DNA of 64,000 bases from the NCBI RefSeq assembly GCF_000350165.1, contig NZ_CAUI01000005.1, forward strand, positions 496,001 through 560,000, read 5' to 3'. Both the position numbers and the translations under genes were made by a program. Position 1 is the stretch's first letter, and the number at the start of each line of letters is the position of its first letter. The notes beneath the pieces were generated by a model. The model was given only the letters and a program-made list of their open reading frames with translations. It was not told where the DNA came from and made no database searches. This DNA is from Halanaerobium saccharolyticum subsp. saccharolyticum DSM 6643 (lineage in GTDB: Bacteria > Bacillota > Halanaerobiia > Halanaerobiales > Halanaerobiaceae). Positions 7,620 through 14,084 of this stretch are shown in pieces.

Positions 7620-8972
7620 ATGGCAAAATTAACATTTCCTGAAGATTTCGAATGGGGAGCTGCAACAGCATCCTATCAAATTGAGGGAGCAGCTAATGAA
7701 GATGGTAAAGGAGAATCTATCTGGGATAGGTTTAGCCATCAAAAAGGGAATATAACAAATAATGATACAGGCGATGTAGCCTGCGATCACTATCATCGCT
7801 ATCAAGAAGATATAGAATTAATGAGAAAAATTGGCTTAGATAGTTATCGTTTTTCTATATCCTGGCCAAGAATTATACCGGCTGGCAGTGGTAAAATTAA
7901 TCAAAAAGGAATTGATTTTTATAAAAGGCTGGTAAATGAACTTTTAAAAACAGGAATTAAACCAGCTGCAACCCTATATCACTGGGATCTACCGCAAAAG
8001 CTGCAGGATAAGGGTGGCTGGGAAAATAGAGATACAGCTAAATATTTTAACGAATACGCTCAACTAATGTATAAAGAACTTGGAGATTTAGTTCCACGCT
8101 GGATAACTCATAATGAGCCCTTTGTTGTTTCAATGGTGGGTAATTTATTTGGCGAACATGCTCCAGGTAATCAGGACCATCAAAAAGCACTTCAGGTTGC
8201 TCACAATTTATTACTTTCTCACGGAATGGCAGTTGAAAGTTTTAGAGAAAGCGGAATTGAGGGAGAAATAGGTATTACTTTAAATCTAGCGCCTGTTTAT
8301 GCTAATAGTGAAAATAAAAAAGATCAAATTGCAAAGGATTATAGTGATGCTTTTAATAACCGCTGGTTTTTGGATCCTGTATTTAAAGGGGAATATCCAG
8401 AAAAATTAATGGCTCTTTATCAAAAAGAATTTAATCAGCCTTTTGAGCTGGAAACTGGAGATTTGGAAATAATCAGCAGAGATATCGATTTTTTAGGTAT
8501 TAACTATTATTCCAGAGCTCTTGTAGAATATGATGAAAGCAAACTGTTAAATTTTAAAACAGTAAAACCAGAGGCTTCTAATTATACAGCAATGGACTGG
8601 GAAGTTTATCCGCAGGGCTTGACCGACTTACTTTTAAGCTTGGATGATCAATATACTAAAAAACCAATCTTTATAACTGAAAATGGAGCCGCCTACGATG
8701 ATCAAATAGCAGAAGATGGCAATGTTCACGATGACAAAAGAGTGGATTATTTAGAAAAACATTTCAGAGCTGCCCAGCAGGCAGTTGAAAAAGGAGTAAA
8801 TTTAAAAGGATATTATCTTTGGTCTTTAATGGATAATTTTGAATGGGCCTATGGATATAATAAACGTTTCGGAATTATTTATATTGATTATGATAATGGC
8901 CAGAATAGGATTTTAAAAGACAGTGCAAAAATGTACAGTAAAGTTATAGAAAATAATTATATTAAAGCATAG
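7620..8972 (+). CDS. Beta-glucosidase, glycoside hydrolase family 1
   Basis: Hydrolyses terminal beta-D-glucosyl (or related) residues from oligosaccharides; no signal peptide, so cytoplasmic. At 450 residues it is a full-length GH1 barrel. The acid/base Glu is E166 in the THNEP motif, and the nucleophile is E354 in FITENGA. The GH1 N-terminal signature FEWGAATASYQIEGA is present, and the aglycone-side DNFEWAYGYNKRFG lies near the end. It sits 59 nt after the transporter ATPase gene with AGAGGAGGC as ribosome binding site, and is followed at once by a GH94 enzyme. The cell thus seems to have both hydrolytic and phosphorolytic routes for imported beta-glucosides. Exact specificity (glucoside, galactoside, phospho-glucoside) is not resolved. 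Confidence 0.95.
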   Translation: MAKLTFPEDFEWGAATASYQIEGAANEDGKGESIWDRFSHQKGNITNNDTGDVACDHYHRYQEDIELMRKIGLDSYRFSISWPRIIPAGSGKINQKGIDFYKRLVNELLKTGIKPAATLYHWDLPQKLQDKGGWENRDTAKYFNEYAQLMYKELGDLVPRWITHNEPFVVSMVGNLFGEHAPGNQDHQKALQVAHNLLLSHGMAVESFRESGIEGEIGITLNLAPVYANSENKKDQIAKDYSDAFNNRWFLDPVFKGEYPEKLMALYQKEFNQPFELETGDLEIISRDIDFLGINYYSRALVEYDESKLLNFKTVKPEASNYTAMDWEVYPQGLTDLLLSLDDQYTKKPIFITENGAAYDDQIAEDGNVHDDKRVDYLEKHFRAAQQAVEKGVNLKGYYLWSLMDNFEWAYGYNKRFGIIYIDYDNGQNRILKDSAKMYSKVIENNYIKA

Positions 8973-13489: not shown

Positions 13490-13566
13490 AATATATACTT
13501 AATATAAATAACTTAATATAAATAATGAGTTTAAAAAGTCTGCAAATTGAAACATTGCGAAATAGC

Positions 13567-13594
13567 TTGACAAGAGATTTAAAAGATGTATAAT
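13567..13594 (+). promoter_or_regulatory. Perfect-consensus sigma-A promoter for two tiny genes
   Basis: TTGACA (13567-13572), 16-bp spacer, TATAAT (13589-13594). Both hexamers match the consensus exactly, the only such case seen in the window, implying strong transcription of the small genes that follow. Confidence 0.85.
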
Positions 13595-13676
13595 GTAATT
13601 AGTATAAATAATATATAAGTAAATCACTTATAATTAATTTAACAACAATAAGTTTATAAGAAAGGGTGATTTAATA

Positions 13677-13805
13677 ATGTTTAATTCTTTATTAACATTC
13701 ATTAAAACAGCTAATACTGAAGGGAAAAGAATCGAAAGTAATCTTCAAGCTGTTAAAGAAAAGCAGATTAAACACGATTCTTTTGCACACTTGAATCATT
13801 ACTAA
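13677..13805 (+). CDS. Tiny protein, first of a tandem paralogous pair (42 aa)
   Basis: Short gene reading MFNSLLTFIKTANTEG at its start and ending FAHLNHY, with GAAAGGGTGAT as ribosome binding site nine nt before ATG. The N-terminal dozen residues could form an amphipathic helix and the middle is charged. There is no cysteine, double-glycine leader or transmembrane segment. It shares its start (MFN), the pattern F-x-K/x-x-A and a final N-x-Y with the next tiny gene, and the two upstream regions are also similar, so the unit is a tandem duplication. A perfect promoter precedes it and a terminator follows the second copy. I do not recognise the family; secreted peptide, small regulator or signalling peptide are all open. 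Confidence 0.65.
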   Translation: MFNSLLTFIKTANTEGKRIESNLQAVKEKQIKHDSFAHLNHY

Positions 13806-13897
13806 AAATGTTTCATTTAAAAGTCAATAACTGATTTATAAAAATAAGTCAATCATAATTATAATTAAAATAACTTTATAAGAGAGGATGATTGTAG

Positions 13898-13996
13898 ATG
13901 TTTAACAACATGTTCAAATTCATGCAGGAGGCTAGACTTGAATCTTCAGATAATCAAGAAAAGCTTGATGCGTTTAAAAACTTAGGTAACTACTAA
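13898..13996 (+). CDS. Tiny protein, second of a tandem paralogous pair (32 aa)
   Basis: Begins MFNNMFKFMQEARLES and ends NLGNY. The ribosome binding site AGAGAGGATGATT and about 50 nt upstream resemble the corresponding region of the first copy: TTTATAAGA-R-AGG-R-TGATT is shared, with only the R positions differing. It is shorter in the middle than its neighbour. The 92-nt gap between the copies has no promoter or terminator that I can see, so both probably lie on one short mRNA ending at the hairpin at 14011. Function unknown. Confidence 0.62.
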   Translation: MFNNMFKFMQEARLESSDNQEKLDAFKNLGNY

Positions 13997-14010
13997 TATG
14001 ATGATAATAT

Positions 14011-14040
14011 AACCACCCTTCCCGGGTGGTTTTTCGTTTT
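14011..14040 (+). terminator. Terminator of the tiny-gene operon
   Basis: AACCACCC (14011-14018) pairs with GGGTGGTT (14024-14031), followed by TTTCGTTTTTT. A strong rho-independent terminator. Confidence 0.92.
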
Positions 14041-14055
14041 TTAAGGGTTATTTTT

Positions 14056-14084
14056 TTGTTATTTTCGATTTAATATATTATAAT
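14056..14084 (+). promoter_or_regulatory. Promoter of deoD
   Basis: TTGTTA (14056-14061), 17 bp, TATAAT (14079-14084), 36 nt before the deoD start codon. Confidence 0.65.

Follow-up and report, generated by a model that had tools for sequence, protein, structure and literature searches.

The closest described counterparts of the leader analysed in this work are the operators of CsrA/RsmA, with their CsrB-type sponge RNAs, and those of TRAP-type regulators. CsrA/RsmA operators are short repeated RNA motifs at the Shine-Dalgarno (SD) sequences of many mRNAs; they contain GGA, typically in hairpin loops, and one copy overlaps the SD. TRAP-type regulators rely on short leader repeats at regular spacing, and TRAP operators comprise many (G/U)AG repeats with 2-3-nt spacers. 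Extended SD sites, which pair with the 16S tail over an extended region close to the start codon, were described in Firmicutes and matter in S. aureus (PMC13009471).

The leader of two tiny genes of Halanaerobium saccharolyticum, here named ORF1 and ORF2, resembles each of these systems in part. It shares short repeated motifs at the SD with CsrA/RsmA operators, and its boxes also occur in an ORF-less RNA, which is reminiscent of a CsrB-type sponge. In contrast to CsrA/RsmA operators, its motif is AUAAG at an 8-nt phase and its targets are tiny proteins; ORF1-type leaders (AAAGGGTGAT) contain no GGA, the ORF1 leader has AAAGGG, and single leaders show no structure beyond that of shuffled sequences. 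Regular spacing is shared with TRAP operators, but only two or three AUAAG boxes are present, one every 8 nt. Extended pairing with the 16S tail is common to the Firmicutes sites, which leave the phased upstream boxes unexplained. A literature search retrieved no paper that deals with the AUAAG leader element or with the Halanaerobium small proteins described here.

Both genes lie on the plus strand of the window, the whole 64,000-nt stretch of the H. saccharolyticum subsp. saccharolyticum DSM 6643 genome that was analysed. The unit starts with a sigma-A promoter, TTGACA-16-TATAAT (13567-13594), which is the sole exact match in the window when spacers of 15-19 nt are scanned (chance mean 0.19). 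ORF1 (13677-13805) encodes a 42-aa helical protein (MFNSLLTFIKTANTEGKRIESNLQAVKEKQIKHDSFAHLNHY) and ORF2 (13898-13996) a 32-aa protein (MFNNMFKFMQEARLESSDNQEKLDAFKNLGNY) with a conserved C-terminal AFKxLGNY. An intrinsic terminator (14011-14041), composed of a hairpin at 14011-14031 and a T tail, closes the unit, and a comparable hairpin is found behind the orthologues. The only perfect-consensus promoter, the two genes of 42 and 32 codons and the terminator had all been noted in the preliminary description and are present as claimed. The promoter is conserved among relatives, and solely from the promoter and SD sequences we infer that the unit is strongly expressed. A 17-nt element (TCTGTAAATTTAGACTT) about 20 nt upstream of the promoter -35 is kept in seven other Halanaerobium genomes (loci L028, L031, L032 and L034-L037) and has a degenerate copy in the window (13538-13548); it is a possible candidate for a transcription-factor site. 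At locus L030 (G003, contig 479), the contig end (positions 1-19, reversed orientation) consists of transposase-adapter sequence (AGATGTGTATAAGAGACAG), a library artefact that truncates the ORF1 leader and promoter there.

As judged by protein alignment, ORF1 and ORF2 are paralogues, as had been proposed: the local score is 48 versus 19 for shuffles, and none of 500 shuffles reached 48. The further claim that about 220 bp had been duplicated stands in part. The two leaders are indeed repeated in direct orientation, with 76% identity over 42 nt and 80% over 25 nt, at a spacing of 222/225 nt, but only the leader, the N-terminal helix and the C-terminal end are alike, and the central EGxRIExN segment of ORF1 is absent from ORF2. 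Likewise, the resemblance of the upstream regions reflects repeated leaders within the unit, but the same phased AUAAG leader also precedes unrelated tiny proteins across the class.

The preliminary description had named a lack of homologues with a conserved reading frame in relatives as grounds against its proposal; such homologues were found. Reading frames are kept in ORF1, ORF2 and a third paralogue, ORF3, with pN/pS values of 0.27, 0.21 and 0.27, respectively, and synonymous changes in ORF1 and ORF2 are about four-fold more common per site than replacement changes. Because homologues conserve the frame and substitutions are mostly synonymous, ORF1 and ORF2 are regarded as genuine genes for real, conserved proteins under purifying selection, a conclusion drawn from sequence comparison. 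Structure prediction for ORF1 gave a single helix at residues 2-39 (pLDDT 87). The hydrophobic moment over an 18-residue N-terminal stretch is 0.54-0.75 in ORF1, ORF3 and the homologue from G044, and only 0.31 in ORF2; mean hydrophobicity is -0.09 for ORF1 and -0.16 for ORF2. Neither protein matched a family in searches of Pfam, NCBIfam, PHROG, PADLOC and Rfam, a PDB sequence profile search gave only matches at E>=0.12, and a plasmid search gave no match. The proposal of a dedicated operon for undescribed tiny paralogues is thus supported by frame-conserved homologues, purifying selection, a conserved promoter and the lack of a known family in these searches.

Further copies, for which a search of Halanaerobiales genomes had been suggested, were detected in most relatives. 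ORF2 is present in 11 of 12 Halanaerobium genomes, including H. congolense, H. kushneri, H. saccharolyticum, H. salsuginis and H. polyolivorans, and ORF1 in seven of the 12 (own genome included in both counts); four genomes have ORF2 without ORF1. At one locus (L033 of G006, 8180-8568) ORF2 is joined directly to an ORF1-type leader, as would be expected if recombination between the leader repeats had deleted ORF1. deoD lies just downstream of the unit in every genome where the contig continues that far, and the upstream neighbour differs between genomes (an aldo/keto reductase gene, a MetA-like gene and others). ORF3 was found in five genomes, upstream of an aldo/keto reductase gene and with its own perfect promoter. 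Distant homologues in other families of Halanaerobiia share the core EGxRIExNxxxAKxxY. Those of family f11 (G044, G057) were detected at E ~1e-8 with a profile built without them, and the search was repeated with a profile that includes them; the homologue of family f7 (G022) was located via its leader and scores 52 versus 21 for shuffles.

In the 5' leader, AUAAG boxes recur every 8 nt, and the last of them stands at a set distance from an extended SD (AGAAAGGRTGAT). In ORF1, the boxes occupy 13648-13652 and 13656-13660 and the extended SD (AGAAAGGGTGAT) 13659-13670; in ORF2, AUAAC at 13870-13874 and AUAAG at 13878-13882 precede an extended SD (AGAGAGGATGAT) at 13881-13892. Some leaders, such as those of ORF2 in the window and ORF3 of G011, carry just two boxes or degenerate ones. 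Among 25 leaders, AUAAG was counted 64 times versus 8.4 in shuffles, and pairs at lag 8 were counted 26 times versus 0.04; the set holds one to a few leaders per family, its descent-related loci are not independent of each other, and the shuffle controls ignore this kinship. Fixed spacing among orthologues partly reflects shared descent. In a larger set of 39 leaders, from orthologues and other leader-bearing tiny genes, the upstream promoters match the consensus at 12 of 12 positions in 20 cases and at no fewer than 11 in 31. In 35 of these 39 leaders the last box stands at one and the same distance from the SD, whereas the distance from the -10 to the SD varies from 18 to 88 nt (the 18-nt value comes from ORF2 of the window, whose promoter is probably not genuine; the shortest after it is 26 nt). 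Since the first distance is fixed and the second variable, the element is tied to the translation start rather than to the promoter and most likely acts on translation.

Besides the ORF1-3 family, a search across Halanaerobiia with the pattern TATAAGAAAGGRTGATNT-N0-6-ATG picked up two tiny genes of f11 that seem to be unrelated to it. Reversing the pattern as a control gave no match over the same class, and a looser pattern added further tiny genes. We then used a sequence-only profile (R1) of 39 positions, trained on 21 leaders, in 59 Halanaerobiia genomes. Of the 45 matches obtained at E<=1e-3, 42 lie before ORFs no longer than 57 codons, as read from the sequence at the matches; the remaining three belong to an ORF-less RNA, a 644-codon gene (G011) and a site with nothing recognisable (G038). 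Outside the training loci and ORF1-3 orthologues, 14 of 17 matches precede tiny ORFs, and the other three are one ORF-less RNA and the same G011 and G038 exceptions; some W and Zn members (see below) were in the training set, so those matches are not fully independent, and P members were never included. Above E ~0.01, most matches lie in front of ordinary genes, and these matches were regarded as background. For the reversed model (R2, the same alignment backwards), no match in these 59 genomes reached E<=1e-3, the lowest E being 0.0055, and nothing convincing was found in about 280 genomes outside Halanaerobiia, where the best E of 0.0015 is at chance level. The bare SD motif is uninformative, because in viral contigs it also occurs before ordinary phage genes. 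Three viral contigs have the phased triple motif and none clearly belongs to the leader system; among them are an unrelated 70-aa gene, seen twice, and a contig without an ORF. AUAAG boxes also precede a gpmI (phosphoglycerate mutase-like) gene inside an operon at L292 (G033), with three boxes at the 8-nt phase, and at L347 (G025), and given these cases the element may not be restricted to tiny genes.

By these searches, the leader is common to at least five unrelated tiny families. They are the helical family E (ORF1, ORF2, ORF3 and distant homologues); family W, 30-aa membrane peptides ending in WS or WT with a copy in the genome of the window itself (G000:C22:704163); family P, membrane peptides of 28-29 aa, for example MRDLLISALMVGIVMIPQLAELYVSKNN; family Zn, proteins of 50-57 aa that carry two pairs of the CxxC/CxxH type and match zinc-ribbon models below threshold; and a 49-aa family in G019 and G022. 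Two singletons (G056, G057) share the leader as well. In three f7 genomes, Zn tiny genes (L274, L282, L284) lie between the same pair of radical-SAM-like and membrane-protein genes. Family f7 also has a candidate RNA of ~150 nt without an evident ORF (L288, L290, L297, L300, L301, L302). A promoter resembling those of sigma-A is followed by the leader boxes (ACCCCTTATAAGAnCATAAnnnTATAAGAAAnG), a stem that is conserved (CCCCTTATAA/TTATAAGGGG), a conserved unpaired segment (CATTTTTTATCCTCCTTTT) that is complementary to an SD plus ATG, and a terminator. This RNA has no Rfam match, and at L288 and L301 at least it adjoins a histidine-kinase gene.

The same motif stands at a fixed position relative to the SD before unrelated genes, as would be expected of a regulon controlled by an RNA-binding protein. 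We give about an even chance to the reading in which ORF1 and ORF2 form an operon of translated, soluble, helical tiny paralogues within a class-wide leader-sharing set, and the boxes are the operator of a putative RNA-binding regulator. The main rival, and a serious one, is a constitutive translation-initiation enhancer of very highly expressed tiny genes, formed by an unstructured A-rich standby site together with extended SD pairing to the 16S tail, with no regulator; we consider it possible rather than probable. A fixed AU-rich repeat before the SD could by itself boost translation, single leaders are not more stably folded than shuffles, the promoters of leader-bearing genes are near consensus, and AGAAAGG-GTGAT matches, with a 2-nt gap, what we take to be the 16S 3' tail of Firmicutes. 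The SD part found alone before phage genes and the importance of extended SDs in S. aureus (PMC13009471) point the same way. However, an A-rich standby site needs no exact 8-nt AUAAG phase, nearly all profile matches at E<=1e-3 lie before tiny rather than ordinary genes, and the element is also present in ORF-less RNA. As this exact phasing and the sharing by unrelated genes and ORF-less RNA suggest recognition, a trans-acting RNA-binding factor is favoured.

An RNA switch or thermometer, in which the SD would be masked by an upstream AAATCAC or, in other families, ACCUUU, appears unlikely. In ORF1, AAATCAC (13621-13627) is complementary to the SD-overlapping GTGATTT (13666-13672) with a duplex energy of z=-2.8 versus shuffles, and this possible masking arm is consistent in most Halanaerobium ORF1 and ORF3 leaders (z ~-2 to -3; -0.8 for ORF3 of G011) but not in other members; P-family leaders of G001 and G005 also pair better than shuffles. 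Yet the mean z over 45 leaders is just -0.95, many members show no pairing and whole-leader folds do not exceed shuffles. The ORF2 counterpart, CAATCAT (13850-13856) opposite ATGATTG (13888-13894), had no significance in the orthologues tested, and its partner base varies without compensation (CAATCAT, CAATCAG, CAATCAC). Tiny ORFs and a terminator before deoD, wherever contigs reach it, could suggest a leader-peptide attenuator of this purine nucleoside phosphorylase gene, but deoD has its own promoter-like site (14056-14084), neither ORF3 nor the distant homologues, which sit in other contexts, are followed by deoD, and the protein sequences are under purifying selection, which leaves this explanation very improbable. 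We give equally little credit to a type I toxin of a toxin-antitoxin pair: tiny size, duplicated copies and the hydrophobic P and W peptides would fit, but a consensus scan of 13567-14040 revealed no minus-strand promoter-like site, ORF1 and ORF2 are soluble with mean hydrophobicity below zero, and zinc-ribbon proteins carry the same leader. Least probable, and already largely refuted, is a small regulatory RNA with non-functional ORFs; the ORF-less RNA with the same boxes in a related family is in its favour, but pN/pS values of 0.21-0.27 and kept frames in ORF1-3 are against it.

Under the operator reading, the putative regulator would contact successive AUAAG boxes and control access of the ribosome to the adjacent SD, and all leader-bearing tiny proteins would be switched together; weak AU/SD pairing may assist the regulator in some leaders. 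In the weakest step of the proposal, the tiny proteins would probably bind a partner or a membrane surface through the amphipathic helix. Tentatively, and with less confidence, we suggest a dedicated post-transcriptional tiny-protein regulon in which an RNA-binding factor reads the 8-nt-phased AUAAG and, in one family, the ORF-less RNA may serve as a sponge or co-regulator.

To our knowledge, most tiny proteins come to light individually, and how they are regulated is obscure. In Halanaerobiia, the phased AUAAG leader probably marks a tiny-protein regulon, with a single short RNA signal linking several unrelated tiny-protein families across a bacterial class. Such a signal allows genuine genes to be predicted among unannotated ORFs, and it points towards a regulator still to be discovered.
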